From: a virus
IMG/VR virus record: IMGVR_UViG_3300046511_000171
Coordinates: 1-53,119 of that record
Length of the DNA: 53,119 nt
Strand: one strand, 5' to 3'
The notes under the pieces were generated by a model. It saw only the letters and a program-made list of their open reading frames with translations, searched no databases and was not told the DNA's origin. Position 1 is the first letter of the stretch, and every line of letters begins with the position of its first letter. The position numbers and the translations under genes are program-made. This document shows, piece by piece, positions 6,201-29,563 of this stretch.

Positions 6201-9200
6201 CAGCAGTTACTGACCTGGAGTGCGAGGGACGGCGCGCTGGACCCCAAGGACCCCGTGCAAAGCGCGTTCGCCCGCGTGCTGAACGCCATGTCCTACAACC
6301 GGGGCGAGGAAATGCTGCGCCGGCTGAGACTTGAGCAGACCGCCATGAAGATGACCAAGGCGGGCCGGCCCACCACGAGCGCGCTGTTGGCGCGGGCTGA
6401 AATCGAGAACCTGGACAAGGGCGCGTCGAAACTGCGCATCGGACCGTCCGACCTGCGGACCGAGGCTTTGCGCGGTCCCAACCCGCAATACTGGGCCAGC
6501 CATCACGAACTGTTCGCGCGGGTGGGCGAAGCCTACACCGCCTACCGCATGGAAGCGGCGAGCATGGACCCGGCGGGCGTGGTCAAGTCCAACAAAGCCT
6601 ACCAGGACCGCGCTTTGGCCGAGATCCGCCACCGCTATCCGAACTGGATCGACCGCATCGACATGTTCCACGCGTTCGACCAACTGGTCACGGAGATGGA
6701 GCGCGCCAGCACGTTGAGCCAGGGCCAGCCCCCGGCGGGACGCACGACCGAAGCGCACACGCTCAGGCCCTGGTCGGAGCGCCCGGCGGATATCAGGCCC
6801 GGCTTCCTGACATCCGTCCGTAACGACCTGAGCGCCTTGCGTTGGAGCAACCTCGTCAAGGGCGAACACGAGCCCCTGTTCAAAGACCCCAACGCCACTC
6901 CGGCGCCCCTGGATTACAGCACCCGCGCGGCGAAGAAGACCGGCGTGGCGACACCCAAGACCCTGGGCGTGCAACGCGCCGACGACCTCGCCATGACCTG
7001 GAACTCGGCCCTGGGCAACCTGGACCGGATGATTAAGCAGATGAACCCCGCCGCGCGGCCTTTCATCCAGGGCATCCGGGACAAGCTGGGGTCAGCGCCC
7101 GGATCGGGCCGGCCCGTGGACGAGAGTTTCGAGGAACGTATCAAGCACCGGGGCAACCCCGTCGTGTCCGAGTGGGAGGACGCGCTGAAAGACGCCGGGC
7201 TGAAAAGCCGGTTGACCGGACGGGCCTACATGAACCCGGAACAGAACGCCATGTTCCGGCACACGATGCAGACCGGGGAGACGACCTACCCGCTGAACGC
7301 CCACGACCTTACAGGCATCGGGCCGCGCAAGCCGATCCCGGAGAACATCCTGGCGGCGGCGGAAAAGACCCGGTTCATCGAGGACCGGCTGCACGACCAG
7401 ATCGTCGGCACCGAGGGCCTGGAGGACACCGGCTACGCCAGCGGCCATGTGTCCCGCGTGTTCGATGACCGCGCGATCCGCAACGACAAGGAGGGTTCGA
7501 CCCGGGACCGCACCCGGCTCAACCAGTTCATTTTTGATAACGACATGAAGTTCACCGACCCCAGGGAGCGCCAGAACCTTCGGCCCGACGAAGACAAGCC
7601 GGAACGTCTTTACCAGTGGTGGCGGGAAACCCCGGAGCGGGACACGCCGATGTTCAGCCAGGACGCGCGCGACGCGATGGCCCAACTGGGTAAGAACCTG
7701 AACCGGATCAAGGCCATCGACGAGGAACTGAAGGCGGGACCCGGCGGGGCCGGCGTCAACCCCACCACCCACGACCCCATCAAACTCGGCGCCGAACGGG
7801 ACCAGCTTGTCCGGGACAACCTGGACATCCACGATGAACACGTAACGCACATCCGGGACCAGATCGCGCATTACGAAGCCCAGAACTGGTGGGACCGCAT
7901 CGCCAAGGGCGATCCCCTGGATTTCGCCACCATGGGACCGGACAGCCGGTTCACCAAAGGCCGCACCCTGCCGCCCGAAGCAGACCAGATCATGCGGGAC
8001 TGGATGCACAAGGACATGCTCACCAGCTTCCCCAACTATGCGCACGGCGTCGCGCGCAAGATCGCGTTCACGGAGTTGTTCGGCGCGGATGGCCGGGCCA
8101 CCCAGAACGCCATCGACAAGGCGGTGGACCACGGCATGAACGGCAACTTCTCCACGCCCATCCGTCAGGTCGTGGAAGCCGTCACGGGCCGGTCGATGCG
8201 CGGCAACAATGACCCGGGTTTGCAGCGCACCACCAACATGGTCTCGGCGCTGGGTCAACTCATGCTCCTGCCCGGCGCCAGCATATCCGCCGTGGGCGAG
8301 CCCTTCGGGACACTCCTGGCGGGGGGTAGCCCGAAGATGATGTTCGGCACGTTCACGCGCATGGCCGGCGCCATGCTCCACACCCCGAGCGCCGCCGAGC
8401 GCATGGCGGGGATACGCGCCATCGGCGGCACCACTTCAGTCCTCCAGGGCGCCGCCGCCGCGTCCCGCTACACCGACTACGCCGGCACGCCGACCATCGA
8501 GAAGTTCATGCACCGGTATTTTGAACTGGCGCTGTCCCCGGTGGTGCGCTGGATCAGGGCGGCGACCTACGGCGCCGGCACCCAGCATATCAAGACACTC
8601 CTGGATCTGGCGACCGACCCGGCGGTGACACGCCGCCAACTGGATCGACAGGCGGACGCCAAAACTCTGCTGCACGACTGGTATGCCCAGGACCACCAGT
8701 TCGAGGGTCTGAAGGACCTGTTGAGGCCGTTCAATGATGTGCCCGACCGGGTCACGCTCAAGAACCACCCGATGGGACCGGTCTTCGAGGTCATCGCGAA
8801 CCGGATGCTCAACCGCATGTCCCAGGACCCCACGGCGGCTGAGAAGCCGCTGGGGGCGCTGCGCAACCCCATGGTGAACATGCTCGCGGGGCTGACCTCG
8901 TTCCCCTACGGGTTCATGCGGAACGTCGTGGACCCGGCGATGCACCGCGCGGCGCAGGCGAAGCAGCGCGAGTGGGACCGGCGGATCGCGGCGGGTGAAA
9001 GCCCCACGAGTGCCCGGTTCCAGGCCGAGGCAGCGCGGTTCAAGACCTGGGTGCATACCGCTATCGGCGGGCTCACGCTGCTGGCCGGGACCGGGCTGAT
9101 GTTCGCGCCGCGCTCCTACCTGTTCAATCAGGCGGCGTGGCAAAAGCACGAGGACGACGGCGACCTGTTTGATTGGCTACTGGGCTCCACGATTGACGCG

Positions 9201-9854
9201 TCGGGGCTGCTGGGACCGCTCGCCGCCGTGGGGCAGGCGTTCACCGCGCTGCGCTACACGGCGGACCTGAGCAACCTGGTGGAAGGCCCCTACCTCGCCA
9301 CCGAGACCCGCTACATGATTGATATCATCAAGGGCGTCATGCACGCTTTCGGCGGTTCCAGCGACGGCACCAACACCGAGACCTACAACGCCATCCACGG
9401 GCTCACCCAACTGACCCTGAAGCCGGGCGCGTTGGCGAGCATGGCGTGGCTGGCCAACCGCCTTCCCGCCGGACCCTTGTCGGGGTTGATCGGCGCCATG
9501 TCCATCGCCGCCACGTCCCCCACGGTGACGCGCGGACTCACCGATTTCGCCGCCGGGCCACGCGGAACCAAGATCAAGAAAGAGTCCGCCGACCCGTTCG
9601 CGCCGCCGCCCCTGGAGCCCCTGCCCTTGACCGACCTGGAGCAGGCCCAGGCCAAGGGCGAAAGCGTGGGCGGCGGTCCGCCGTCCTGGATGATCGGGCT
9701 GACGGACGACATCCTGGTGCCCGCCATGCGGGTGGTCCCTGGCTGGGGTAAACCCTTGCTGGCCGGCGGCGCGGCGCTGGGCGGTGTCGGCGCTCTGCTC
9801 AGATCCGGGCACCATTACAAGACCGAGGGCGAGTCGCCGGTCAAGGCTCGCTGA
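3300..9854 (+). CDS. Giant polyvalent/internal virion protein (2184 aa) with ART-like and HExxH metallopeptidase-like segments
   Basis: Domains seen in order: three copies of LPDFDKLVPLG (residues 16-26, 50-60, 77-87) separated by Pro/Gln linkers; a Gly/Ala-rich hydrophobic region (about 140-300); a long Pro/Thr-rich linker (about 305-590); a segment starting LYRGSG at 599 and running to about 740 that looks like the ADP-ribosyltransferase-like fold of phage polyvalent proteins; and an HEHWH motif at 947-951, matching HExxH of a zinc metallopeptidase. Long helical regions follow, with hydrophobic segments near 1645-1675 and 1920-1942. Such multi-domain proteins are known from phages and conjugative elements and are thought to be delivered into the host with the DNA. 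The neighbouring transglycosylase fits an ejection-protein role. Domain assignments rest on motif reading only. Confidence 0.8.
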   Translation: MPPPLDDTSSTPGVELPDFDKLVPLGQAAQPIQPQSQPQAQTQPQPPVPLPDFDKLVPLGPVAQPQPQAQAQPPVELPDFDKLVPLGPAAQPAPSTSEPVGFLSSLFGGIGASGREAGQLATGEGFNPANVQEQPERTFMGGVGYGLGHSFPTLAGMVLGAAGGGAAGTAIEPGFGTAVGGALGGAAGGGVTDFVQSLVPAYQDAIRRGATQDEAVDEAYKMAGASGAFTGVTAPLFGLSPFKSVIKDLLFHTLVTGPGTGVVKQGVIDPAVTGQPTPGLGELAEGAVQNAIGGGIAGGVMHYGPQLGRRIVGLPTTSGETATPAGPDTSPSIAPTGPAPTSTDIPPRPTPFTDLVRPPPEGVAPGEAVPITTPTPEPPPIPPRETPPNATTAQPRPGEPAAAPVIPEPPAAVPTGAETARPGMEPTARPVGTIPVDETRPGEVRPAGVEGPAPPAPEPAAPSVAPTAVPGQREPVPGQAEPPDKNTLPPDKNTPAPETPGTPAYKLAELDRINAPDEAYRDALSTGSKDPLKPGETWRDRLVKWVDQERAAATAGEAETSAQGANAPGTTPAVVPREPASAEPPPAWRAKNPDIPATLYRGSGREDQTGVYNPAGGTPVPILGPGRYHAFTEEHAKTYGPNIETTPNDLRNPLIIRSDNEWRALTREAGWEFPNPFGADKAKVETMTNDMRELVQSKGHDGVIVTFDTKTDRDVDSQGRGIKTLRNVFDVPQVVDYRARETPGARVTDQEAPGTLESRAGFRRKAPAPGEPEPTPNRVRAKPPGEPVVTPHPGDPLTLEDYAYSRGTSAYRDAPEEALRGTGINPKTFTNRPILEQNKILADQLKAKYGFTNVDLEPRTVTVTPDGKTRTHPAVEPKITRDWLLNVHHNMQNMAHALGWSQETVALNGRLGLHLVPYNFKGENWYGSYSFADKTIHISGGSNSYAHEHWHAIDDYMTDLLHNNPNKQQLLTWSARDGALDPKDPVQSAFARVLNAMSYNRGEEMLRRLRLEQTAMKMTKAGRPTTSALLARAEIENLDKGASKLRIGPSDLRTEALRGPNPQYWASHHELFARVGEAYTAYRMEAASMDPAGVVKSNKAYQDRALAEIRHRYPNWIDRIDMFHAFDQLVTEMERASTLSQGQPPAGRTTEAHTLRPWSERPADIRPGFLTSVRNDLSALRWSNLVKGEHEPLFKDPNATPAPLDYSTRAAKKTGVATPKTLGVQRADDLAMTWNSALGNLDRMIKQMNPAARPFIQGIRDKLGSAPGSGRPVDESFEERIKHRGNPVVSEWEDALKDAGLKSRLTGRAYMNPEQNAMFRHTMQTGETTYPLNAHDLTGIGPRKPIPENILAAAEKTRFIEDRLHDQIVGTEGLEDTGYASGHVSRVFDDRAIRNDKEGSTRDRTRLNQFIFDNDMKFTDPRERQNLRPDEDKPERLYQWWRETPERDTPMFSQDARDAMAQLGKNLNRIKAIDEELKAGPGGAGVNPTTHDPIKLGAERDQLVRDNLDIHDEHVTHIRDQIAHYEAQNWWDRIAKGDPLDFATMGPDSRFTKGRTLPPEADQIMRDWMHKDMLTSFPNYAHGVARKIAFTELFGADGRATQNAIDKAVDHGMNGNFSTPIRQVVEAVTGRSMRGNNDPGLQRTTNMVSALGQLMLLPGASISAVGEPFGTLLAGGSPKMMFGTFTRMAGAMLHTPSAAERMAGIRAIGGTTSVLQGAAAASRYTDYAGTPTIEKFMHRYFELALSPVVRWIRAATYGAGTQHIKTLLDLATDPAVTRRQLDRQADAKTLLHDWYAQDHQFEGLKDLLRPFNDVPDRVTLKNHPMGPVFEVIANRMLNRMSQDPTAAEKPLGALRNPMVNMLAGLTSFPYGFMRNVVDPAMHRAAQAKQREWDRRIAAGESPTSARFQAEAARFKTWVHTAIGGLTLLAGTGLMFAPRSYLFNQAAWQKHEDDGDLFDWLLGSTIDASGLLGPLAAVGQAFTALRYTADLSNLVEGPYLATETRYMIDIIKGVMHAFGGSSDGTNTETYNAIHGLTQLTLKPGALASMAWLANRLPAGPLSGLIGAMSIAATSPTVTRGLTDFAAGPRGTKIKKESADPFAPPPLEPLPLTDLEQAQAKGESVGGGPPSWMIGLTDDILVPAMRVVPGWGKPLLAGGAALGGVGALLRSGHHYKTEGESPVKAR

Positions 9855-10322: not shown

Positions 10323-13088
10323 TCAGGCGTCTTTCCGGTAGCGCCGGCCTATCGTCGCAGCCGCCGCGACGGGCAGTCCCGGCGCCCAAACGGGTGCCCG
10401 GTTCATCGCTCGTGACAGCCAGGCCCGGGCGTCCTCGGCGCGTGCCTGGGGGACCTCGGAGATCAGTTCGTCATGCACGGTCGCGATCAGGGGCGGACCC
10501 TTGCGGTGCACCCGGATGATCGCTTCGGCCATGACATCGCGGGCGATGGCCTGGACGATGTTCTCGCAATTGTGGACGATCAGGGGACCGGTCCGGCCCG
10601 CGACTACGAAGCGACGGCGGCTTCCGGCGTTGACAAGGTCGTAGACTTTTTGCGCGGAGCGCGCCGGTTGGCTGCTTGCTCCGTGCTGGTCTTCCAGGCA
10701 CAGTTTTCCGGTGAATACCCGGCGTCGTTGTCGATCCGGTCGATACTCAGTCCCGGCTGATACGTCGGCCCCATGTCGCGCCAGAACGCCTCGAAAGACA
10801 CCTGCCACTCCGGGCAGACCGTGATCCCGCGCCCCCCGTAGTTCTTCCACGCCTGATGCGTGGGCAACCTGCATCGGTCGTTCATCGAACGCCAAACCCA
10901 GAAAACCGGATGCTTTGACATACCGTGCGTGATCCGGCTCTGACTGATGAGCGCGAACCGCTGGCACCCGCAGGACTTCACCTTTCCCTTGATAAAGTCC
11001 GACCGGCGCATGGACTTCGTCGTCCCGCAGTCGCAACGCACCAGCCACACGGCTTCGCGTTTGCGGGTCGGAACACCAGGACGTGTAACGGCTTCCTGGC
11101 GCGTCAACGCCGTCAGGGAGTTCGACCGGAGCCCGGTCAAGTCCAGTGGAAAACTCGGCATGGCGCCAGCCCTCAATCGTTAATACTTCATGGCCCGGCG
11201 TCATGGAGACGCCATCCAGTGCAATGCAGTCCGCGATCCCGTTACAAATCAAACCGTCATGGCTGACCCAGGCGTCGCTGTCCCAGACACGGTTGGCCCG
11301 GGAAACTAACTGAATGGGGAGCCACCCTTGCTCTGTCAAGACTAAAGTGCCCTCCGCCAGACACAGTTTCCCTGGCCAGGACCGCACCCACGCCCATCGC
11401 CCTTGCTCGACGCCCCGGTAGACGAACTCCAGGTGGCCGTGGTCGGGGTGCCGCCGCACATGGGGCTCGCGGTAGACCAGCGCCCGGCCACTTGGCAGGA
11501 CGATGTCCAGGCTCTGGGGCCGGCGGGCGAAGACCATGCCCCGGAAGCTGACCGCCGAACCCACCGGGCCGGCGGCGACAGCCAGGGCGATCTTGTGGGC
11601 TTCCCACCACATATGCACGACATGGTGGTTCAAACCCCGCCAGCCGGCGACGGCGTCTTCGGCCTCGCCCTCGGTGAGCGTGACGCCGAACGTCCGGGCG
11701 GTGTCGCGGAACCGCCGTGGTCCCATGCCGAAGCCGGTCGCCAGGACCAGGACCTTGCCGAACTGGCGGTTGTCCGAACCCAGGGACTTCGCCGTGTAGG
11801 TGTAGACATCCTCGTCCCGGCGGAATAACTCGACGACATCGTCCTGCCCGGCCAGCCACACCAGGACCCGGGCTTCGATCTGGGAAAGATCGCAGGACAC
11901 CAGCATGTGCCCCGGCGCCGCCTCGATCACGGATCTGAGCATCGACGCCAGGACACCCATGGGGCTGTCCTCAAAGAGAAGGTCCAGGTCCTCGACGGTC
12001 GCGCCCTCGTTGACCAGATCCACGGCGGCGTGCGGGTCCTTGATCGTGCCCCTGGGAAAGTTCTGCCATTGCACACCGCGTCCGGCCCAGCGCCCGGTCC
12101 TGCTGGCACCGTAGTATTGGAACCCGCCCCGGACCCTGCCATCGGCTGACACCCGGTTCCTGATGGTGGTCAGCTTCGCCGTGCTGGACCGAGACACGTC
12201 CCGGCGGCAGCGCAGGACGGCGCTGACATGGCTGGGCAGACCGGGACGAGCAAGCATCCCCTCGACCGCCTCACGGCCCAGGGTGGGCCTGGGAGGCTTG
12301 CCGTGGCCCGGGTCCAGCATCGGGACCGGGGTGTCGTTGTCGGTCAGCCACGTGACCAGCTTGCCCACCTGAGCGCCGGACGTGATCTGGCCATTGGTCA
12401 ACCGATTGATCCGGTCGTTGATGCGCAGCTTCTCGGCGTCGCTCAACGTCCGCATCCGGTCCACCAGGGACAGGTCCACGCGCACGCCCCTTTGGTTGAT
12501 CGCGTGATCGGCCAGGAAGATTTCGTACTCGCGGGGGCTCAACTCGGGGACCGCGCCATCCAGTTCGCGTTCCGCCGCCACGTCCTGGGCGCAATAGGAG
12601 ACCAAATGCGCGAAGCGTGCCGGGTCCGTCTCGTGCCACCACGTCAGCGGGTTGAGGCTCCGGGGCCGGGCAAATCTCAGCATCAGGTCCCGGGCGGACG
12701 CGTCCTTCTGGATGGCGAGCCCCAGCGCGTGGCCCGCCAGTTCAAGGCTGGCCGGCAGGCCGGCGACCAGCGCGCGGGCCATGGTGCAGGACCATTGGGT
12801 GAGTTGGATCGGCGGGAAGCCAAGCGGGACCAGCACCGCCGCCCAGATATTCAACTCGAAAAGGTAATTATGCGCGACGACCACGCATCCCGAGACAATC
12901 GCCGCGCGCAGATCGTCAGGGCAGGGACCGCCGGTCCAGGTTCGCACGGGTCCCCGCCCAAGGGCGTAACAAAGCACGGTGACGCGCGTGGACGGATCGT
13001 TCGCGTAGACGCTGGACCCGACCACGCGCAAGTCGGCTAAACTCGTGGTCTCCAGGTCCAGGACAAGCCTAGCATCGCGGTTGGGCAT
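10323..13088 (-). CDS. Family A DNA polymerase with 3'-5' exonuclease domain, interrupted by an intein
   Basis: The host protein is about 656 residues once the 265-residue intein is removed. The N-terminal DEDD exonuclease shows LDLETTS (D11, E13), AHNYLFEL (about 72-79) and YCAQDV (D169). The polymerase domain shows motif A (CDLSQIEARV, D400), a motif B-like RQFGKVLVLATGFGMG (441-456) and motif C (VHDEL, D873 in the unspliced chain). Extein numbering breaks at L575/C576 and resumes at C841, within the conserved GKL-CENIVQAIARD block, so activity should depend on splicing. The gene ends the leftward early operon, and its ATG 13088 overlaps the stop of the preceding gene by 20 bases. It is likely the phage replicative polymerase. 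Confidence 0.93.
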   Translation of the reverse strand: MPNRDARLVLDLETTSLADLRVVGSSVYANDPSTRVTVLCYALGRGPVRTWTGGPCPDDLRAAIVSGCVVVAHNYLFELNIWAAVLVPLGFPPIQLTQWSCTMARALVAGLPASLELAGHALGLAIQKDASARDLMLRFARPRSLNPLTWWHETDPARFAHLVSYCAQDVAAERELDGAVPELSPREYEIFLADHAINQRGVRVDLSLVDRMRTLSDAEKLRINDRINRLTNGQITSGAQVGKLVTWLTDNDTPVPMLDPGHGKPPRPTLGREAVEGMLARPGLPSHVSAVLRCRRDVSRSSTAKLTTIRNRVSADGRVRGGFQYYGASRTGRWAGRGVQWQNFPRGTIKDPHAAVDLVNEGATVEDLDLLFEDSPMGVLASMLRSVIEAAPGHMLVSCDLSQIEARVLVWLAGQDDVVELFRRDEDVYTYTAKSLGSDNRQFGKVLVLATGFGMGPRRFRDTARTFGVTLTEGEAEDAVAGWRGLNHHVVHMWWEAHKIALAVAAGPVGSAVSFRGMVFARRPQSLDIVLPSGRALVYREPHVRRHPDHGHLEFVYRGVEQGRWAWVRSWPGKLCLAEGTLVLTEQGWLPIQLVSRANRVWDSDAWVSHDGLICNGIADCIALDGVSMTPGHEVLTIEGWRHAEFSTGLDRAPVELPDGVDAPGSRYTSWCSDPQTRSRVAGALRLRDDEVHAPVGLYQGKGEVLRVPAVRAHQSEPDHARYVKASGFLGLAFDERPMQVAHASGVEELRGARDHGLPGVAGVFRGVLARHGADVSAGTEYRPDRQRRRVFTGKLCLEDQHGASSQPARSAQKVYDLVNAGSRRRFVVAGRTGPLIVHNCENIVQAIARDVMAEAIIRVHRKGPPLIATVHDELISEVPQARAEDARAWLSRAMNRAPVWAPGLPVAAAATIGRRYRKDA
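10569..11363 (-). other. Intein (Hint domain) inside the DNA polymerase, 265 codons
   Basis: The intein runs from C576 to N840 of the unspliced protein. Block A is CLAEGTLVLTEQGW. Block B has the T-x-x-H form in MTPGHEV. Block F is VYDLVNAGSRRRF and block G is LIVHN followed by C841 as the +1 nucleophile. N-terminal Cys, C-terminal His-Asn and a +1 Cys are the expected splicing residues. In the intein's own frame, about 170 residues between blocks B and F look like no known domain. That stretch is the shadow frame of a complete HNH gene (10604-11161). The insertion point is a highly conserved polymerase motif, as usual for inteins. Confidence 0.9.
10604..11161 (-). CDS. HNH homing endonuclease nested inside the intein, +1 frame
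   Basis: The 185-residue protein is read one base out of phase with the intein. It shows the layout of a phage HNH family: an N-terminal LTG...L block, RCDCG and KSCGC cysteine pairs, THGMSKHPVFWVWRSMNDRC, YGGRGITVCPEW, then LSIDRIDNDAGYSPENCAW and a basic tail. ATG 11161 is preceded by GAGGG about 12 bases upstream; TTG 11176 is an alternative start. Both the HNH frame and the intein frame are open through the whole stretch. It is likely a free-standing homing endonuclease that replaced or occupied the intein's endonuclease position. Expression as a separate protein is inferred, not shown. Confidence 0.85.
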   Translation of the reverse strand: MPSFPLDLTGLRSNSLTALTRQEAVTRPGVPTRKREAVWLVRCDCGTTKSMRRSDFIKGKVKSCGCQRFALISQSRITHGMSKHPVFWVWRSMNDRCRLPTHQAWKNYGGRGITVCPEWQVSFEAFWRDMGPTYQPGLSIDRIDNDAGYSPENCAWKTSTEQAANRRAPRKKSTTLSTPEAAVAS

Positions 13089-19056: not shown

Positions 19057-19711
19057 ATGTTCAACGACCCTGACCACCGCTCAATCGCTTCCACGGCTAC
19101 CCGAGTACCTCACCCCATGACTACTATCCCCTACCGCATGAAGCGTTCCCTCGCCATGGCCACGGCCCTGGCGCCGCCCAACCCAGAACTGGAAAAGTTC
19201 CGCGACAACCTGCTCAAGGGCATGGCCGCGAAACACATGAGCGGGTCCGACGTGGCCCGTGCGGTCTGGGGCGTCAAAACCGACGCCCGGGGCAAACAAG
19301 TCGCGAGAAATCGCGACCGCATGACCCACTATCTGGCCGGGCGCGGCTACCCGCGTCCCGAGACCGTGTTGAAGCTGGCCGAAGTTCTGGGCCTGGACCC
19401 GAAGGACCTGGAGCGCGAGCCCGGCAAGGCCGCGCTCCCGCCGCCCTTCGTCTGGGGCGACGCCGGCCCGCCCCCCCGCATCGGGACAACCCGCCAGCGA
19501 AGGGACCGGCGCGCCGACCACGCCGCCCGCCCGGACCCCGGGGACCAGCGCGTTCAGGTTCGACGTGCAAACCCTGGGGCGCGTGCATTTCCACTATGAC
19601 AAACTGGTGGACATGCGGCTGGCGATCCGGCTGTTCGACGCGATCCGCGCGATAGACCCGGAGTTCCACGACCTGGGGCCGGTCCCGGACGGCAAACCGC
19701 CGGAAGATTGA
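19057..19711 (+). pseudogene. XRE-family phage repressor, frameshifted at a C7 run
   Basis: The N-terminal part has a helix-turn-helix (LEKFRDNLLKGMAAKHMSGS, then DVARAVWG and MTHYLAGRGYPRPETVLKLAE), typical of XRE repressors. At 19471-19477 there is a run of seven C. In the frame as sequenced the protein ends at 19599 in Arg/Asp-rich nonsense. Removing one C joins the frame to a sensible tail (SAFRFDVQTLGRVHFHYDKL ... DLGPVPDGKPPED) ending at 19711. So this is a sequencing indel, a real mutation, or +1 frameshifting. The start is uncertain: ATG 19057, or in-frame ATGs further in. It probably keeps the prophage silent when intact. Confidence 0.7.
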
Positions 19712-19718
19712 GCCCCCC

Positions 19719-20111
19719 GTGATCGAACTGCTCACGCAGCGGGAAGCCGCCGCGCTGTTGCGCTGCGGGCTCTCCAAGATCCAGGCGCTGCGCCGCGACG
19801 GCAAGCTGCCTTATTTGCCGGGACGACCGGTTCTCATACCCAAAGTGGAAATCGAAAAGTGGCTCTCAAAAAACATCAGGTCAGCAAGCCCACGCGAAGC
19901 CCCCGCCGTCCCGGCGAAAGCGACAACGAGTGGACGGTTCGCAATGCGTATCTATGGCAAAAGCCCACCGGTCGCTGGGTCATCAAACACACCGACATCA
20001 TCCTCAAAGCCGATGGCACGACCGATCACCGCACCAACGAGCAAGCCTGCTACACCGCTGATCGGACCGAGGCCGAAGACAGGTTCACGCTCTGGAAGCA
20101 GGATCGGCTGA
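19719..20111 (+). CDS. xis: Excisionase-like HTH_17 protein, 3' part overlapping int
   Basis: GTG 19719 lies 7 bases after the reconstructed repressor stop. Residues 4-52 form a MerR/excisionase-type winged helix: LLTQREAAALLRCGLSKIQA, then LRRDGKLPYLPGRPVLIPKVEIEKWL. The rest of the 130-codon frame overlaps the integrase gene by 253 bases in another phase and looks low-complexity. Its real C-terminus may therefore be non-conserved, or the frame may be open by chance. The role is likely directional control of the integrase. The order repressor-xis-int is a standard lysogeny cassette. Confidence 0.65.
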   Translation: MIELLTQREAAALLRCGLSKIQALRRDGKLPYLPGRPVLIPKVEIEKWLSKNIRSASPREAPAVPAKATTSGRFAMRIYGKSPPVAGSSNTPTSSSKPMARPITAPTSKPATPLIGPRPKTGSRSGSRIG

Positions 20112-21037
20112 CACCCAAACAAGCGACGGGCGCGCCTCTCACGTTCGCGCGACTGGCGGACAACTATGTAGCGACGACCCAGACCCAGCGGCTGACCCGT
20201 GCACAGGATCACACGGTCAACAAGCTGGCACAGGTCCTGGGACACTACCCGGCGGACCGGATCACCGAACAGAAGCTGGCCGAACTGCACCGCGACATCC
20301 TCGCCGCCGGCTGGTCCCAGGGCACCGCGCGGCGCCATCTGAGCGTGGTGGTGACGGTCCTGAAGTGGGGCGCCAGGAACCGGATCATCCCGCGCGACGC
20401 CGTGCCCGTCTACCAGATGCCGCCGGTCACGGCGCCACGGAACTACACGCTCACATCCGAGGAAGACGCCCGCGTCTTCGATCTGGCGGTGCAATGGTTA
20501 AAACGCGCTGACGACGTGAACCGCCGCGCCGCGCTGTTCGCGTGCATCGCGCTGGACAGCGGTCAGCGCCGGGACGCGATCCTGGAACTGACCTGGGACC
20601 GTATCGACCTGACACCGGGACACGAGTTCATCGACTTCGTGAACCCGGACTATCAGCCCAAAAACAAGCGGCGCTGCGCTGATGTCTTCGTGACGGATCG
20701 GCTGCTCGCGGTCCTGAAGCGTGAAGCCTTCCACGCGCCGAAGTCACAGGGCAAGCCCACGGGACCCTTGTTCGCCAGCCATCGCCTGATGCGCGGCTTT
20801 GATCGTTTCAAAGCGGACGCCGGCCTGCCCCGTCTCACGCCGCACGTATTCCGTCACACCTTCGCCACGCTCAGAATACAGCAGGGCTGGACCGTGGCCG
20901 ACGTGGCGCACATTTTGGCGGACAACCCGGCGACCGTGGCCCGCGTGTATCTTCACAACGCTGGCGTATCGGTCCGCGAAAACGCGCGGCGCGTTGACGC
21001 CATGCGCCGCGCCTACAACGACAACCGCGCGGCGTGA
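19859..21037 (+). CDS. int: Tyrosine recombinase, phage integrase
   Basis: The protein has 392 residues from GTG 19859. It has an N-terminal arm-binding-like part, a core-binding SAM-like domain (about 90-180: TFARLADNYVATT, TARRHLSVVVTVLKWG) and a catalytic domain (about 195-385). Catalytic residues visible are R237 (SGQRRDAILEL), H329 and R332 (PHVFRHTFAT) and the nucleophile Y364 (ARVYLH); K268 or K270 lies in the expected hairpin. The usual LGH just before the nucleophile reads LAD here. It would integrate and excise the prophage at an att site I could not locate. Confidence 0.92.
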   Translation: MALKKHQVSKPTRSPRRPGESDNEWTVRNAYLWQKPTGRWVIKHTDIILKADGTTDHRTNEQACYTADRTEAEDRFTLWKQDRLTPKQATGAPLTFARLADNYVATTQTQRLTRAQDHTVNKLAQVLGHYPADRITEQKLAELHRDILAAGWSQGTARRHLSVVVTVLKWGARNRIIPRDAVPVYQMPPVTAPRNYTLTSEEDARVFDLAVQWLKRADDVNRRAALFACIALDSGQRRDAILELTWDRIDLTPGHEFIDFVNPDYQPKNKRRCADVFVTDRLLAVLKREAFHAPKSQGKPTGPLFASHRLMRGFDRFKADAGLPRLTPHVFRHTFATLRIQQGWTVADVAHILADNPATVARVYLHNAGVSVRENARRVDAMRRAYNDNRAA

Positions 21038-21712: not shown

Positions 21713-21731
21713 TTTTCGCATTGTCGCTTTT
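21713..21731 (+). repeat. Iteron-like repeat, copy 1 (upstream of primase gene)
   Basis: TTTTCGCATTGTCGCTTTT matches three copies at 24462-24534 on the other side of the primase/helicase genes. The surrounding 21584-21854 stretch holds no gene. The primase ORF could be extended upstream to 21744 but has a better start at 21855. Confidence 0.65.
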
Positions 21732-21854: not shown

Positions 21855-23042
21855 ATGCCCAAAACCCAACCCATCACGAACAACCAGGAGTTTCTGGAAC
21901 TGATCTTCGGGGCCGACTGGCCCCGAGTGGAAGTCTGTTCGGTCCCGGTCCTGGGACGGGACGACATATACCGCCCCTACTGGGCCACGCAGCCCGCCAA
22001 GAACGTGCTGTCCCGGTTCAACCCGGACTGGAATAATTACTTCTGCGTCGGGCTCGTGAACACGCCCGGCCTACGGCGGATCGAGAACTTCGAGGCGCTG
22101 CGCGCCCTGGTGGTGGACGATGTCGGCCCCAAGGTCGCCCCCGGTGAAGTCCAGGGCCTGCTGGGCGAGCCCACTTACAAGGTCGAGACCTCGCCCGGCA
22201 ACGAACACTGGGGGTATGTCCTGGACCCGCCCGTGACCGACAGGACGCGGGGTGACGCGCTGATCGACGCCATCATAGTTGTCCTGTTCGGCGGCAAGGA
22301 CCCCGGCATGAAGGGCGTGGTTCGCATCATGCGCCTGCCCTTTGGGAGCAACACCAAATACAAGCCGGCGCACAAAGCGCGGCTCACCCACGCGACGGGA
22401 CCCAGGCACGACCCGGCGGAACTTGAACGGCGTTTACCCATCGGGGTCAAAGCCGTGGTGCGGCACACCGAGCCAGAACCCTTCGATCCGTTCGACAAAG
22501 CGACCTCGACCTCGCCCCCGGGACCAGCGCCAGGACCGAGCCGCCGTCCCGTGGAGCCCACCCTGCGGGCAATGCGCAAGCTGGGTCTGGTCCTGGGTAA
22601 CGAGCGCAAAGCATCCCAGGGCACGGGCTGGGACGTGCGCTGCCCGTGGGTGCATGAACACACGCCCGGGACCGGCGCCGAGGACACGGGGACGATGTAT
22701 TTCCGGGGTGGCGGCTTCAAGTGCTGGCACGGGCACTGTCAGGACCGCAAACCCGAGGACGTGCGCGCCCGGGTGAACCAGATGCTCAGCGACGAGACCG
22801 GGGGTTTGTTTACGATTGACGACTTCGACCCGAACAAGCTGGACGTGGTGGACACGGACCAGGTGCCCGCGAGCCCTTTGCCCCCCGAACCGGACATCGT
22901 GCGCCGGTTCTGGGAGGAAATCGTCTATCTGGCGTCCGAGGAAAAGTTCATAAACCTGGTGACAGGTGAAGAAATGAGCGAGCGAGCGTTCAACGCGTAC
23001 TGGGGTCCGCTGCTCAAAGACTACCTGCCGAGGATGCCGTGA
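21855..23042 (+). CDS. Primase-polymerase (AEP-like) with zinc-binding segment
   Basis: The 395-residue product (ATG 21855) carries an archaeo-eukaryotic primase-like pattern: LVVDDVG with D88-D89 as metal ligands, then SPGNEHWGYVL (113-123) with a candidate catalytic His, then VRIMRLPFGSNTK (156-168). A Pro-rich linker follows, then a zinc-binding segment with C263, H267/H269, C290, H292/H294 and C295 (CPWVHEHT ... CWHGHC). It probably synthesises primers at the phage origin. The stop overlaps the GTG start of the helicase gene, so the two are coupled. No strong Shine-Dalgarno lies at the chosen start; GGAAAGGAG is about 25 bases upstream. Confidence 0.75.
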   Translation: MPKTQPITNNQEFLELIFGADWPRVEVCSVPVLGRDDIYRPYWATQPAKNVLSRFNPDWNNYFCVGLVNTPGLRRIENFEALRALVVDDVGPKVAPGEVQGLLGEPTYKVETSPGNEHWGYVLDPPVTDRTRGDALIDAIIVVLFGGKDPGMKGVVRIMRLPFGSNTKYKPAHKARLTHATGPRHDPAELERRLPIGVKAVVRHTEPEPFDPFDKATSTSPPGPAPGPSRRPVEPTLRAMRKLGLVLGNERKASQGTGWDVRCPWVHEHTPGTGAEDTGTMYFRGGGFKCWHGHCQDRKPEDVRARVNQMLSDETGGLFTIDDFDPNKLDVVDTDQVPASPLPPEPDIVRRFWEEIVYLASEEKFINLVTGEEMSERAFNAYWGPLLKDYLPRMP

Positions 23043-24280
23043 GCGCGAAGAAAACCAGACCCACGCCCGCCGGGGCGTGGTATCTAGGTAGCATCCATCG
23101 ACGGCGCACCGTTGCCCGGCGGGCGTTCGCGCCGGGACAGTCCAGGGTGTTCAGGCGCAAGACACTGGCGGGTGGCGTGGAAACCTGCCTGAACATGTGG
23201 GTGGACCTGACCCGGCTGTTCGGATCGGTCGCGGACGCCAGCCTGGATAAACACGTCCGAGACAGCGACTGGTGGGCCTTGATCGACGCGCTATGCGGGA
23301 CCACCACCCAGGAAGAACGTGAGAACGCCCGGCGGTTGCGGTTTTACATGGCGATGATCGTGGGCGCGGTGGGTGTCAAACCCGGGCACAATCCCTTGCT
23401 CATCGGCAAACAGGGCGCCGGCAAGGAACAAATCTGGGCACCCATCGTACAAGTCCTGGGACCGGAGCGGTCCGTCAACGTGTCCCAGCACATGTTCAAC
23501 GGGACGTTCAACGCCTGGATGATGAACCGTTTCGTGATGATGCCCGAAGTGCGCCGCACCACGCGCGGTACGACCACCGACCACGATCAATATACAGCCA
23601 TCAAGCGCATGTGCGATCCGGGCCGCGAGTTTGATAATGTGAACGAGAAACACATAAAAGCGATCAATGCGCAAAACGTGTTCGTCCTGGTCATGACCAC
23701 CAACGAAGAACAGCCCATGACCCTGGCCAACGATGATCGGCGCATATGGGTCATCCAGACCAAGGATCACGACTGGGACAACTCACGGCATCAAAAGTTG
23801 GCGGCATGGCTCAAAGCGCCGTCCCCGTGGGGGGAGACCAACGCCCACGTTATCGTCGAGTGGCTGATCCGGTTCTGGGACGAAGGGATCATGCTGGATG
23901 AAGTTCTGGGCGCGGCGCCCATGACCCAGGACAAGGTGGAACTGATCGAGCGCGGCGCCGGTCCCGTGCTGACGTGGCTGCGGGACACGTTCGGCAGGAC
24001 AACGCCGGACCCGTTAACGTCGCGGGACATCTTCACGTCAGGGGACATCGTGGACAGATTGACCCAGGCGATCCGTGGCGGGGGACAAGGCGTGGGGCCT
24101 GGGACACGCGTGCCCTCGGCGGACAACATGGGACGTTACCTGGTCAAAGCGGGATGCCGTAAGCTGAACGACGGCAAGGCCACCGGGCCAAGAGGCCAGC
24201 GTTTCTGGGCCAAACCCGACGCCGACCCATCTTACGACACCATGAGCGGCACCGAACTGTTGCGGGCTTACACAGCCTGA
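23039..24280 (+). CDS. SF3/DUF5906-type replication helicase
   Basis: The start is GTG 23039 (GTGA overlap with the primase stop), giving 413 residues. Walker A is LLIGKQGAGKE (121-130). The Walker B-like strand is RFVMMPE (164-170). A sensor-like stretch is VFVLVMTTNEEQPM, followed by a basic DDRRIWVI. This is the layout of virus-type SF3 helicases of the NrS-1/DUF5906 group that pair with primase-polymerases. Together the two genes make a self-sufficient initiation module beside the candidate origin. Confidence 0.82.
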   Translation: MSAKKTRPTPAGAWYLGSIHRRRTVARRAFAPGQSRVFRRKTLAGGVETCLNMWVDLTRLFGSVADASLDKHVRDSDWWALIDALCGTTTQEERENARRLRFYMAMIVGAVGVKPGHNPLLIGKQGAGKEQIWAPIVQVLGPERSVNVSQHMFNGTFNAWMMNRFVMMPEVRRTTRGTTTDHDQYTAIKRMCDPGREFDNVNEKHIKAINAQNVFVLVMTTNEEQPMTLANDDRRIWVIQTKDHDWDNSRHQKLAAWLKAPSPWGETNAHVIVEWLIRFWDEGIMLDEVLGAAPMTQDKVELIERGAGPVLTWLRDTFGRTTPDPLTSRDIFTSGDIVDRLTQAIRGGGQGVGPGTRVPSADNMGRYLVKAGCRKLNDGKATGPRGQRFWAKPDADPSYDTMSGTELLRAYTA

Positions 24281-24300
24281 TATGGGACAAATGGGACAAG

Positions 24301-24426
24301 AAACTCAGCACTCAGCACAGTTTAGCTAGCCTTTTATACGTGCGCGCGTATAAGCATATCGGAAGGTACTGGGTATGCCGAGTATATATATAAAAGGCTA
24401 GCTAAACTGTGCTGAGTGCTGAGTTT
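24301..24426. repeat. Perfect 38-bp inverted repeat (50-base spacer)
   Basis: The left arm is 24301-24338 and the right arm 24389-24426, exactly complementary over all 38 bases. The arms read from AAACTCAGCACTCAGC to CTAGCCTTTTATA. After a two-base mismatch on each side, a further TGGGACA/TGTCCCA pair (24292-24298 and 24429-24435) extends the hairpin. The spacer itself holds TATACG-TGCGCG-CGTATA overlapping the arm end. It is far longer than a terminator. Confidence 0.95.
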
Positions 24427-24461
24427 GCTGTCCCAAACTGTCCCACAACGGCGCCGTGGTG

Positions 24462-24534
24462 TTTTCGCATTGTCGTTTTCGCATTGTCGCTTTAACAACG
24501 TGGGCGTTGTATGGTGATTTCGCATTGTCGCTTT
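24462..24534 (+). repeat. Three iteron-like repeats (copies 2-4)
   Basis: The repeat core is TTTCGCATTGTCG followed by C or T and TTT. Copies lie at 24462-24479, 24476-24493 (overlapping in tandem, 14-base period) and 24518-24534. A fourth identical core lies at 21713-21731. All four are on the + strand. They are candidates for initiator or helicase-loader binding. Confidence 0.8.
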
Positions 24535-24579: not shown

Positions 24580-24822
24580 ATGGATGATGATGAGACTGGA
24601 CGCAGGCTGGACGCGATGATGCGTCGGCTGAATGATAACCACGAGGCTGTTCTGGCCAGCATGGCCGCGTTCCGGGATGATATGACGGTGCAGAGCGCCA
24701 TCATCATGCGCATGGACGGGACCCTATCGGCGTTGATTACCGAGATACGCGCGATGCACGCGCGCCAGGAACGGTTGTCGCGGCGCGTGGACGGCATTGA
24801 AAAGCCGCCGGCCCCATCATAG
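24580..24822 (+). CDS. Small coiled-coil protein (80 aa)
   Basis: ATG 24580 follows AGGAG by about 11 bases. The product begins MDDDETGRRLDAMMRRLNDN and is helical throughout with heptad-like spacing (MDGTLSALITEIRAMHARQE), ending in a Pro-rich tail. No family is assigned. The stop codon lies inside the terminator hairpin. Confidence 0.65.
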   Translation: MDDDETGRRLDAMMRRLNDNHEAVLASMAAFRDDMTVQSAIIMRMDGTLSALITEIRAMHARQERLSRRVDGIEKPPAPS

Positions 24823-25256: not shown

Positions 25257-25457
25257 TCAGCGGTTTGGCAGGGTGTGGGGTGAGATACCGGCGGCGCGGC
25301 ATAGCCTGTGAAACTCAGCGGTGGCCGCGTCCAGTGCTTCGCGCGTCCAGACGGCGGAGCCGTCCGGGCGGGCTTCGGGGTGTTGGCGCATCCAACGGTT
25401 GCCGGCATCGGTCGCGGCGGCGCGGATCATGCGCATATCCAGCGTGGGGCGCGTCAT
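25257..25457 (-). CDS. Hypothetical protein (66 aa)
   Basis: ATG 25457 overlaps the VWA gene stop (ATGA at 25454-25457). The product is helical and Ala/Arg-rich (RMIRAAATDAGNRWMRQHPE; ALDAATAEFHRLCRAAGISP). No family is recognised. It is part of the MoxR-VWA operon by overlap. Confidence 0.65.
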   Translation of the reverse strand: MTRPTLDMRMIRAAATDAGNRWMRQHPEARPDGSAVWTREALDAATAEFHRLCRAAGISPHTLPNR

Positions 25458-27442
25458 GCGCCCAGATCCGGCGCGGCTTCCTCAAGCATCCGCGCCAGCA
25501 CACCCAAACCGGTTTGACCAAGCGCGGCCAGGGTCGGCACGTTGACGCTGTGACCGTCCGGGAAAGCCGCCGCGACCTGGGGCGCGGCCATGCCCACGCC
25601 AACAACCTCAACGCCCCACGTCCTGGCGACAAGGCAGGCATCGGTCACGCAAGCATTGCCATAATCACAATCGCCATCGGTCAGGACCATCATGACGTGG
25701 CGCGTGGCGTCAATGGTTCGCAGGACTTCGGCGCAACCCAGAATGGCAGGGCTCAGCGGCGTCGTGACATGCGGTTGCGCGGCCATGATCCGGTGTGCGT
25801 TGGCGCGTACGGCCATGCCGAACGGCAAGAGCGGGATAAGCCGCGCGCTCGCCACGTCAACGATATCATTGTCCTGGAAGCCATACACGGCCACCTTGGC
25901 GCCGGCATCTTCGGCAGCGGCGGCAAGGTGGAACGCGGTCACACATGCCATGGCGTGCGCCGTGCCTCGCATTGACGATGACAGGTCGATCAGGACCAGA
26001 AGCGCGGTATCCATGCCGGGGGTCTCTTGCTTCCGGCTGAATACGTCCAGGGCGCCCGTGCCGATGCGCGCGAGGGCGCGGCGATCGAGCCGGCCCGACG
26101 TTTCGCGGTGTGTCACCGACACCCGTTCCGGCGAGACCAGCAACCGCGATATCTGGCCATGCAACACCGCGCGTCCAGGCAATGCCGCGTTGTATGCCGC
26201 GACATGCGGCATGGGATCGGCGCGCGACACGTGGGACGGCAACGCCACGGTCACATTGCGATATCCATGCAGGCCGCTGCCCATGGGCGCCGGCGCATCG
26301 GGCGCCTGGCGCTCCGTGATGGCTTGCGTGACTTCGGCCAGGGTTTCGCTCGCTTCGGGCGCATCGTCCAGGCTGTAAGTCTCCGAACCATCGTCGTGAC
26401 CGGCGCCAGGGGCGTCCTGGCCGCTCTCAGGGGCGTCCTGGCCATCCTGAGCCTCGCCAGCCTCGCCATCGGCGCCATCGGCGCCAGGGGCGTCCTGGCC
26501 GCTCTCAGGGGCGTCCTGGCCATCCTGAGCCTCGCCAGCCTCGCCATCGGCGCCAGGGGCGTCCTGGCCGCTCTCAGGGGCGTCCTGGCCATCCTGAGCC
26601 TCGCCAGCCTCGCCAGCCTCGCCATCGGCGCCAGGGGCGTCCTGGCCGCTCTCAGGGGCGTCCTGGCCATCCTGAGCCTCGCCAGCCTCGCCAGCCTCGC
26701 CATCGGCGCCAGGGGCGTCCTGATCCTCTGGTGGCGCGGGCGGTGGCGGGGGCGGTGTGTTAGCCGCGATAATCTGGCGTTCCAGGTCCACCATGCGCAT
26801 GGCCAGATTGTAAACGTCATACGTTGAGCGGCAGGATTTAACTTCCGTCAAAGCCTGATCGACAAGCCGCGCCACGTCCGGGTGTAGCGCGCCACGCAAG
26901 CCCCTCGCCGCGGGCACGGTGTAGCGGTTGGCCATCCTGCCCAAGATCGCCACGCAATAGGGCGCGTCGGCAATCCTGGCGCCGATGGTGCGACCGTCTT
27001 TCGCGGCGCGCGTCAAACCCTGGTAGTGAACATGATCGGTCGTCGCGCTCAGGATGCCGCGCAAGGCGGGAAAGTGTCCCGCGCGGAGTTCCTTTGCCTC
27101 AATGCGCACGTCCTCCAGGCAATTTGCCCAATGGCGCGTCCTGGCGCCGGCTTGCACGCAATGGTGCCACCATTGCCAGTCCGTGTGCAGCACGTGCAGA
27201 CACTCGTGGGCGATGAAGCCCAGCATCCTGTCCGCTTCGGACCGGGACAGCACGGTGGACGCCGGCAGGCTCGGGAGGTTCATGATGACCGTGCTGCCAT
27301 GGACCTGGACCGACGCGGTGGCGCCACCCTTGGCGCCAACGGTGATGCGCACGGGGCGATTGTTCGCCCCTTTGCGCTGCGCGATGATTTTACCGGCGGT
27401 CTCAGCGGCGGCGGCGGTTACTTCAAGGTAAAGTGTGTTCAT
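25454..27442 (-). CDS. VWA-domain protein with HExxH motif (CobT/DUF2201-like)
   Basis: The 662-residue protein starts at ATG 27442. The N-terminal part has FIAHECLHVLH (HExxH, H79-H83) and NCLEDVRIEAKEL, as in putative metallopeptidase domains fused to VWA. A Pro and Asp/Glu/Gly/Ala-rich linker follows, with four tandem repeats. The C-terminal VWA domain (about 478-662) has the metal site LIDLSSSM (D486) and VLTDGDCDYG. The partner MoxR ATPase is encoded just upstream, 1 base apart. CobS-CobT and MoxR-VWA pairs act as ATP-driven chelatase or remodelling machines. CobT-like genes are known in phages, but their role there is unsettled, and I do not assign a substrate. Confidence 0.82.
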   Translation of the reverse strand: MNTLYLEVTAAAAETAGKIIAQRKGANNRPVRITVGAKGGATASVQVHGSTVIMNLPSLPASTVLSRSEADRMLGFIAHECLHVLHTDWQWWHHCVQAGARTRHWANCLEDVRIEAKELRAGHFPALRGILSATTDHVHYQGLTRAAKDGRTIGARIADAPYCVAILGRMANRYTVPAARGLRGALHPDVARLVDQALTEVKSCRSTYDVYNLAMRMVDLERQIIAANTPPPPPPAPPEDQDAPGADGEAGEAGEAQDGQDAPESGQDAPGADGEAGEAGEAQDGQDAPESGQDAPGADGEAGEAQDGQDAPESGQDAPGADGADGEAGEAQDGQDAPESGQDAPGAGHDDGSETYSLDDAPEASETLAEVTQAITERQAPDAPAPMGSGLHGYRNVTVALPSHVSRADPMPHVAAYNAALPGRAVLHGQISRLLVSPERVSVTHRETSGRLDRRALARIGTGALDVFSRKQETPGMDTALLVLIDLSSSMRGTAHAMACVTAFHLAAAAEDAGAKVAVYGFQDNDIVDVASARLIPLLPFGMAVRANAHRIMAAQPHVTTPLSPAILGCAEVLRTIDATRHVMMVLTDGDCDYGNACVTDACLVARTWGVEVVGVGMAAPQVAAAFPDGHSVNVPTLAALGQTGLGVLARMLEEAAPDLGA
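26403..26725. repeat. In-frame tandem repeats in the VWA gene
   Basis: Units begin at 26403, 26481, 26550, 26628 and 26706, giving periods of 78, 69, 78 and 78 bases (26 or 23 codons). They encode acidic repeats such as DGQDAPESGQDAPGADGEAG. All lengths are multiples of three, so unit gain or loss keeps the frame. Protein-coding content and lack of spacers rule out a CRISPR array. Confidence 0.9.
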
Positions 27443-27443
27443 A

Positions 27444-28994
27444 TCAGGCAACCTCGTCTTCGGTTTCGCCCATGGTATCAGGCGAAACGGGATCAAAATC
27501 ACGCGCGGCGGGCGACGATGACGGGACCGGCGCGGCGGGGTTCAACGCGGCGCGAACGGTGTTCTTGTCCACGGCAAGCAAACACTGTTGGCGCAAAGCC
27601 TCTTGTTCGCCGTCCGGGACACAATTTTGCACGGCGCAACGGAACGCGAGTTCAGGATCATGGCCATCGGCCAGCAACCCCGCCCATGCGAACAAGCGGC
27701 GCAAGCCCAAACCTTCCGTCAATACCTGAGCGTCAGCCGCCGCGCGTGTCGTTGTCGCGGCTTGCACCAGGAGGTTGGCCAGTTCAATCGTGCAACCCGG
27801 GACATATGAAACGATAATGCCCGCCTCAACGTCCGGCGCGTGCCAGCCAAGTTTGATCCTGACGCCGAAACGGTCCAGGGTCGCGGCGTTGAGCGCCTGT
27901 GTCCCGTGGTAGCCGACCCTGGAACCCCCGCCCATGCCGCTTGTGTTATCGGTGGCGAAGAAAATCACGCCAGGGGCGACCTTCACCTTCTGTCCCGTTT
28001 CCTGGACGTAAAGGCTGCGATTGGCGGTCAAAACATTCTGCAACGCGAACAACGCGCCAGGACGCGCGATTGAGGGTTCGTCAATGCACACAACGGCGCC
28101 CGGGGTTTGAATAGCGCGCACAAGCTGTCCCGGTTGAAACGACACGCCTTTACCGTCCCGGGCCGGGACCGTCATGCCTACCAGCGTGGCCGCGTCCGTG
28201 CTGGCGTCACAGGAAATCAGCACGAAGGGTCGGCCCAAACGCGCGGCGATTTGTTGCGCGAACTCCGTCTTGCCCGTGCCTTTGGGACCAAAAAGCATGA
28301 CATTATGACCGCGCCGGATCTCTGTGAGAGCTATCGCGGTTTCCGCCGGCCAAACGTAACGATCATTGACGCACGGCGTATCAGGATGCGCGCCATCCCA
28401 CACCGTCGCGGTTTCGTTTCCAAGAGCGCCGCGCACGCCAAACGCTTTGCGCCATGTCACGGTGACATCCGTTGGCGCGGCGCGCGGGGTGGTCGTGTCC
28501 TGATCGCGCTCAACCTCAACGGTGACAGTCTTTGTGACCACCTTGACCACAGCCGGCTTGCGCGCGGCTATGACGAGGTCCCGGAGCCTCTGATCCAGGG
28601 CGGTAAAGCCGCCGGTCATGATATCGGCGCGCACCGCCTGGACCGTCGCTTCAATGGCGGCGGCGTCATCATTATCAGTCGGGACCGTGGCGCCAGCGGC
28701 GGCGTCGGTATCAGCCGGCGGCGTCATCAGGTCCCGTTCGTCATCATCGGTATCGGTGTCAGCCATCGGCGTGGCTCCCGGGACATGCGAAGGGTGCAGC
28801 ATCATCGGATCAATGCCGACGATGCGAAGCAAGCCGCGCAAGTCAGCCTTTGTCAGATTGTTGATAAGCCGCCCGTTGAGGTTCAGGCGCGCGGCTTGCG
28901 CGTCGATATCATTGGGGTCGGCATTGGCGAGCCGGTCGCGCAAAGCGGCGCGCATGGCGGTGCGCCAAACGGCGCTAGGTGTGGCGTTAGACAT
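27444..28994 (-). CDS. MoxR/CobS-like AAA+ ATPase
   Basis: ATG 28994 gives 516 residues. The N-terminal 180 residues contain a small helical domain and acidic linkers. The AAA+ module has Walker A LFGPKGTGKTEF (236-243 core), Walker B VVCIDEPS (301-308), sensor 1 VIFFATDN (343-350) and an arginine-rich region LDRFGVRIKL. A second-lobe helical region follows. It lies directly upstream of the VWA/HExxH protein gene and would power it, as CobS does CobT or MoxR does its VWA partner. It is the first gene of the leftward cassette, divergent from 29147. Confidence 0.85.
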   Translation of the reverse strand: MSNATPSAVWRTAMRAALRDRLANADPNDIDAQAARLNLNGRLINNLTKADLRGLLRIVGIDPMMLHPSHVPGATPMADTDTDDDERDLMTPPADTDAAAGATVPTDNDDAAAIEATVQAVRADIMTGGFTALDQRLRDLVIAARKPAVVKVVTKTVTVEVERDQDTTTPRAAPTDVTVTWRKAFGVRGALGNETATVWDGAHPDTPCVNDRYVWPAETAIALTEIRRGHNVMLFGPKGTGKTEFAQQIAARLGRPFVLISCDASTDAATLVGMTVPARDGKGVSFQPGQLVRAIQTPGAVVCIDEPSIARPGALFALQNVLTANRSLYVQETGQKVKVAPGVIFFATDNTSGMGGGSRVGYHGTQALNAATLDRFGVRIKLGWHAPDVEAGIIVSYVPGCTIELANLLVQAATTTRAAADAQVLTEGLGLRRLFAWAGLLADGHDPELAFRCAVQNCVPDGEQEALRQQCLLAVDKNTVRAALNPAAPVPSSSPAARDFDPVSPDTMGETEDEVA

Positions 28995-29146
28995 GGGGTG
29001 TTCGTGCTTTCCAAGAGTTAGGGGTGTTTCGTTGGGGTGCAGGACAGTCAAGGCAAGGCAAGGCCCTAAATAGCGCCACCATGGCCAAGCACAACAACAA
29101 ACATGGTCCTGCTTGTGTTTTTCTTCAGGACCGGCATCATCCGGCC
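28995..29146. promoter_or_regulatory. Divergent intergenic region with short hairpin
   Basis: This region lies between the leftward MoxR gene and the rightward gene at 29147 and so should contain a promoter in each direction. A 7-bp inverted repeat GGTCCTG/CAGGACC (29105-29132) lies just before ATG 29147. A triple AAGGC repeat lies near 29061-29074. No clear -35/-10 pair was found. An in-frame ATG at 29081 could lengthen the rightward gene. Confidence 0.4.
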
Positions 29147-29563
29147 ATGAGTGAAACCAACATATCGCCAAGGCGGTCCGGGGGCGGGTGGAAGGGCAAC
29201 CCGGCCAGCATCGTGGCGCTGCACAAATATCGGGTGTCGTTGGCGGACCCGAACCTTCGGCGCTGTGTGCGGTGCCGACAGGTAGCCATGCGAGGGTTAT
29301 TGACCTGTCGGGTGCATGGCCATCGGCGCGGGCGGGACACGCCAGGAAGGTTGGCGGGACGTGTCCTGGACCAAATGAACCGGCGCGGCTTGCTGCCGAT
29401 GGAACTCATGCTCACGGCGGTATGGCGGGACATGGTCAAAGCGCCACGGAACCGATGCGAGCCAGCGAGGTTGGCGCTTGTCCTGGCGTGGGACAGGCGG
29501 GAAAGCGAGCCGCTGGCGTGGGCAAGGGCGTGGCGCGCGGCGCTCGCCGTGGTCCCGGTATGA
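29147..29563 (+). CDS. Small zinc-finger-like protein (138 aa)
   Basis: The product starts MSETNISPRRSGGGWKGNP, then has C-x2-C ... C-x2-HG (CVRCRQVAMRGLLTCRVHGH), like the short zinc-binding heads seen in some phage small terminase and DNA-binding proteins. The rest is Arg- and Ala-rich and helical. The stop overlaps the next ATG as ATGA. A DNA-binding role is plausible; a terminase small subunit is possible but unproven, as the large subunit lies 8 kb away. ATG 29081 is an alternative start. Confidence 0.55.
   Translation: MSETNISPRRSGGGWKGNPASIVALHKYRVSLADPNLRRCVRCRQVAMRGLLTCRVHGHRRGRDTPGRLAGRVLDQMNRRGLLPMELMLTAVWRDMVKAPRNRCEPARLALVLAWDRRESEPLAWARAWRAALAVVPV

Follow-up and report, generated by a model that had tools for sequence, protein, structure and literature searches.

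An inverted repeat of constant position and changing sequence behind a phage helicase gene is a probable replication origin

To our knowledge, origins are rarely known for phages with primase-helicase initiators. Replication of the archaeal (Sulfolobus) plasmid pRN1 needs an intact stem-loop of ~100 bp 3' of the gene for its PrimPol-helicase-winged-helix protein, with a 21-nt stem and a 58-nt loop predicted at 75 C; mutation of the stem is tolerated only once symmetry has been restored, and relatives of pRN1 have kept the stem while its sequence has not been kept (Berkner et al. 2014, PMC4234260). A stem-loop behind the primase gene was also proposed in 2014 for the Bordetella phages BIP-1 and BPP-1, and the same paper describes the alpha protein of phage P4, a primase-helicase whose winged-helix domain binds an iteron origin (PMC4234260). 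In SaPI Rep and SCCmec Cch2, the C-terminal domain recognises repeats just downstream of the protein's own gene, and for binding by Cch2 direct repeats are required and inverted repeats dispensable (PMC7581432). The primase-polymerase-helicase of phage NrS-1 is known to recognise, for priming, a template sequence of 8 nt (PMC7102993).

The DNA analysed here, referred to as the window, is an entire IMG/VR virus record, 53,119 bp long, from an uncultured phage. On its plus strand a helix-turn-helix gene (19057-19599) and a tyrosine integrase gene (19859-21037) precede a primase gene (21855-23042), which is a separate open reading frame (ORF) matching PHROG 4861 'DNA primase', and the gene for a D5/NrS-1-like helicase (23039-24280; DUF5906, VapE-like), which we propose as the initiator. 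The window further encodes a large terminase, a portal and a major head protein, as well as a family-A DNA polymerase and a SNF2 helicase on the minus strand. An inverted repeat begins 2 nt past the helicase stop codon, which ends at 24280. As described in the initial annotation, its two perfect 38-nt arms (24301-24338, plus strand, and 24389-24426, minus strand) are exactly complementary, enclose a 50-nt spacer or loop (24339-24388) and are flanked by TGGGACA and TGTCCCA. Beyond the arms, two mismatched positions give way to renewed pairing as TGGGACA (24292-24298) with TGTCCCA (24429-24435), and a second, outer pair of boxes that had escaped the initial annotation was found at 24283-24289 and 24439-24445. 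The outer left edge therefore carries two TGGGACA boxes (24283-24298, plus strand, starting at 24283 and 24292) and the outer right edge two inverted TGTCCCA boxes (24429-24445, minus strand, starting at 24429 and 24439). Within the left arm, CTCAGCA occurs twice in tandem with a 7-bp period (24304-24317, plus strand; mirrored at 24410-24423), a run length reached by 0 of 2000 shuffles. The spacer is 50% AT against a genome of ~65% GC, and a TATATATATA run at 24383-24392 starts in the spacer and ends in the right arm. Folded as single-stranded DNA, the repeat has an energy of -61.9 kcal/mol versus -18.6 ± 2.8 kcal/mol in shuffles (z = -15.5), and in a whole-genome scoring of spaced inverted repeats it reached 48, with the next best at 21.

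Searches with the helicase against viral contigs yielded a comparison set of nine distinct phages of one genus, including the window (W); G011 is identical to G015 in the repeat region, and no helicase relatives were found in genome contigs and plasmids. A distant BLAST search of the repeat region against phages gave no match. All nine helicases contain a DUF5906 and VapE-like helicase domain. Identity to the window, where the gene is present, is about 96-99% for the terminase and 95-99% for the major head protein versus 42-73% for the helicase. The initial annotation had suggested looking for the same hairpin beside homologous primase-helicase genes, and this revealed an inverted repeat 0-61 nt 3' of the helicase stop in 9/9 phages, with differing arms. 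Against 40 shuffles each, z was 32 in W, 20 in G001, 4.4 in G002, 4.0 in G003, 8.5 in G004, 20 in G005, 10 in G006, 3.2 in G007 and 17 in G015; the repeats of G002, G003 and G007 (z 3-4.4) are thus weak, and that of G007, which is cut by the contig end, merely equals its best shuffle. In four of six near-complete genomes the helicase-adjacent repeat is the top spaced inverted repeat genome-wide, while in G006 it shares first place and in G004 it ranks third. The arms of G001 and G015 are near-perfect, and tandem short repeats within the arms are clear in W, G001, G002 and G015 and not significant in the other five phages. The outer boxes of W and G001 read GGGACA, those of most other relatives being CACAACG- or CACAACA-like. 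In L011, a long tandem run of GGGCCA-type units was observed just 3' of the inverted repeat.

The same comparison bears on whether the repeat is a MITE-like insertion, which its terminal-inverted-repeat look and its AT-richer composition relative to the surroundings would suit. The initial annotation had named dispersal of the arm sequence as a mobile element as a finding that would speak against an origin. No second copy of the arm was found within the window, and a 17-nt piece of the arm recurs in two other viral contigs only, without a matching repeat there. As nine phages carry the repeat at a constant place with differing sequence, the mobile element was rejected, and we regard it as scarcely credible.

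Covariation was counted where the arms of two phages align gap-free. Between W and G001, 6/24 arm positions differ, and between G004 and G005, 5/18; all of these changed on both sides, giving 11 compensated double changes and no one-sided change in the two pairs. Between G003 and G004, three one-sided arm changes were found. These alignments suggest that it is a folded or mirrored shape, rather than the letters, that seems to be conserved. An alternative is a structured RNA made from the intergenic region, acting as a processing signal, regulator or terminator; the repeat lies downstream of a plus-strand gene, and in a transcript a stem of this length should fold as well. However, the pair mismatches across the nine phages, read on the plus strand, comprise 5 G-T versus 10 A-C and give no sign of G-U tolerance; an Rfam scan of the repeat region had no match, and neither did a tRNA scan. 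An intrinsic terminator (a GC-rich stem with a short loop, then a T-run) was sought at the repeat and not found, in agreement with the initial annotation, which had judged the repeat not to be one. A structured RNA, which would also leave the co-segregation with the helicase C-terminal domain described below unexplained, is therefore an unlikely account.

The locus resembles that of pRN1 in that a large stem-loop, here predicted, lies directly 3' of the gene for an SF3/D5-type helicase that accompanies a primase and whose C-terminal domain is here predicted to be winged-helix-like, in that the stem is retained despite diverging sequence, and in its long unpaired loop (Berkner et al. 2014, PMC4234260). 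It differs in belonging to a phage instead of an archaeal plasmid, in its stem of up to 38 perfect nt with flanking boxes, and in that the present phage encodes its own family-A DNA polymerase. With SaPI Rep and Cch2 it shares repeats directly 3' of the helicase gene; short repeats in some members, and the recognition by a C-terminal domain that is proposed here, would be further resemblances. In contrast to Cch2, what is conserved here is the inverted symmetry, and only some members have clear short tandem repeats. Phage P4 has a TOPRIM primase and repeats instead of a large stem-loop. The proposal for BIP-1 and BPP-1 is an equivalent one for phages with a related replication protein architecture, but on rescoring the BPP-1 stem reached 15 versus 13 in shuffles, barely above them; the repeats of the present phages score higher and covary. 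The arrangement has already been described for pRN1 and proposed for Bordetella phages; what is new here is a further phage group of this kind, in which covariation is clear and the arms are linked to a single protein domain.

Across the nine phages, arm similarity correlated with identity of the helicase C-terminal domain (r = 0.78, Mantel p 0.0003, in a test that is not fully independent as the phages are related). The partial correlation was 0.72 given the primase and 0.54 given the N-terminal part of the helicase, while the reverse partial correlations were near zero (0.05 for the primase given the C-terminal domain). Two pairs illustrate this pattern: W and G005 have primases 91% and integrases 96% identical and unrelated arms, while W and G001 have primases 65%, integrases 49% and C-terminal domains 75% identical and related arms. 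These comparisons are suggestive of arm similarity tracking the helicase C-terminal domain rather than the primase, integrase or terminase.

As the phage has genes for both a tyrosine integrase and a large terminase, the repeat might serve recombination or packaging, as the attP of the former or the pac or cos site of the latter. However, the arms do not travel with the integrase (r = -0.06), as the pair W and G005 shows, and they differ between phages whose terminases are nearly identical, making either function highly improbable. A further possibility is that the arms match for reasons other than function. Gene conversion and replication template switching homogenise inverted repeats, and either process, acting between the arms, could be a selection-free cause of their matching. 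To account for the present data, it would have to keep an inverted repeat in place in all nine phages, with helicases down to about 42-50% identity, and co-segregation with the helicase C-terminal domain would not be expected from it; we consider symmetry of this origin without function very unlikely. That arm similarity tracks the C-terminal domain, and not the terminase, integrase or primase, argues against a transposon, an attP, a pac or cos site or a terminator and points to an origin recognised by the helicase. Taken together, the constant position of the repeat in 9/9 phages, the compensated arm changes and the co-segregation with the helicase C-terminal domain support the replication origin proposed in the initial annotation, and on this comparative sequence evidence we conclude that the inverted repeat is probably the replication origin of the phage.

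The helicase core matches the solved helicase region of NrS-1 (6K9C/6LRB, E 5e-13), its closest solved relative, and a profile alignment (hhalign probability 96) relates the helicase, together with its C-terminal domain, to the primase-helicase of phage AH2. The C-terminal domain (residues 298-413; 23930-24277, plus strand) is predicted to be winged-helix-like and is proposed to bind the origin. As AF2 modelled the full-length helicase poorly (pLDDT 54), the structural work rests on a model of the C-terminal domain alone (pLDDT 84.5), in which the order of elements is winged-helix-like. Fold comparison of this model by VIA-align, covering the best 1000 Foldseek chains, gave matches that for the most part are winged helices, Orc1/Cdc6 among them, with Z scores of 5-6 that are not distinctive; among the matches listed by Foldseek are the C-ends of phage primase-helicases. 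PHROG 4861 'DNA primase' was found in 7/7 primases scanned, and searches of Pfam and PDB for the primase fold, as well as a comparison of its profile to that of AH2, gave no primase-domain match. Primase and helicase are fused in frame as one continuous ORF in 8/8 relatives. In the window, the two ORFs overlap by GTGA at 23039-23042 in different frames, which may mean that the genes are truly split or that the record differs here.

In the mechanism that we propose, the C-terminal domain of the helicase would bind the boxes and short repeats of both arms, and two helicase rings would assemble in mirror orientation, flanking the loop region. The rings would then melt the loop region, perhaps aided by cruciform extrusion of the arms, and load, after which the primase would initiate new strands on the DNA thus exposed, to be extended, probably bidirectionally, by the family-A DNA polymerase that the phage encodes. 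The initial annotation had also raised an initiator-nicking site; this idea gained no support, as no nickase, such as the HUH nickase of a rolling-circle origin, was recognised among the proteins scanned, which represent part of the ORFs of the window, and pRN1, the closest relative studied by experiment, is likewise without a known endonuclease (PMC4234260).

By analogy, pRN1 would favour the arms acting as a cruciform, and Cch2 their acting as mirrored binding sites. In the second case, a variant of the origin reading, the arms would be mirror-arranged double-stranded sites for two head-to-head helicase hexamers, and a hairpin or cruciform would never form. This possibility draws on the tandem short repeats that W, G001, G002 and G015 carry inside their arms, on the 9-10 bp spacing of the boxes, on the Cch2 precedent (PMC7581432) and on Burkholderia phage AH2, a distant helicase relative. 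Right behind its primase-helicase gene (L060 5176-5370), AH2 carries GGTCCGA boxes in two sets of four, one inverted relative to the other, across a spacer of ~90 nt, that is, inverted iteron arrays without a single continuous stem. The place of these arrays is also a precedent for the origin reading as such. Against it, the perfect 38-nt arms of W and the near-perfect arms of G001 and G015 exceed short binding sites, restored stem symmetry was required in pRN1 (PMC4234260), and the tandem repeats are not significant in G003 to G007. Mirrored sites that never extrude are thus a serious candidate, to which we would give somewhat less than an even chance. Within the AH2 group, some members (AH2, JS26) were found to have inverted boxes and others to have none, and in several more distant primase-helicase phages no such repeat was found 3' of the gene.

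Cumulative GC skew, suggested as a check in the initial annotation, gave a divided answer. In six near-complete genomes, the detrended whole-base curve bottoms out near the repeat, 0.7-4.8 kb 5' of the helicase stop, and peaks roughly half a genome from there; at fourfold sites, however, the genome halves hardly differ and the minima near the repeat largely vanish. With so little asymmetry at fourfold sites, GC skew was dropped as proof of an origin.

For the probable origin, position, symmetry and co-segregation with a single domain point to a precise candidate of 160 bp within a set of nine phages. As comparative evidence for the 2014 suggestion that PrimPol-helicase-winged-helix proteins initiate at stem-loops, they surpass the earlier case from Bordetella. 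That some phages with head and terminase proteins 95-99% identical have unrelated origin arms also suggests that initiator-origin specificity diversifies quickly. We tentatively speculate, while regarding it as doubtful, that it is mainly shape by which the origin is recognised: the stem would form a cruciform, and its two arms, drifting jointly, would be re-matched to a fast-evolving winged-helix domain of the primase-helicase, giving private initiator-origin pairs. If this were true, phages with nearly identical virion genes would be incompatible at the level of the origin.

The inverted repeat was reported in the initial annotation to stand between the helicase gene and iteron-like repeats, and this order was recovered. 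Three TTTCGCATTGTCG repeats lie 3' of it (24463-24534, plus strand), followed by a small gene (about 24580-24822, plus strand), and a fourth copy is found upstream of the primase gene (21714-21730). The TTTCGCATTGTCG repeats are conserved across the genus in a single orientation; they are probably an element separate from the inverted repeat, and are perhaps regulatory, as a promoter or operator. Elsewhere in the window, a 2184-residue protein (3300-9854) has a weak LPD1 match under the Pfam cut-off. The family-A DNA polymerase gene (10323-13088, minus strand) contains an insert of ~266 residues with the look of an intein (beginning PGKL/CLAEGT and ending VHN/C), which is absent from 7/7 relatives compared. 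On the minus strand at 25454-29171, a gene pair encodes a CobT-like VWA protein and a CbbQ/MoxR-type AAA+ protein.
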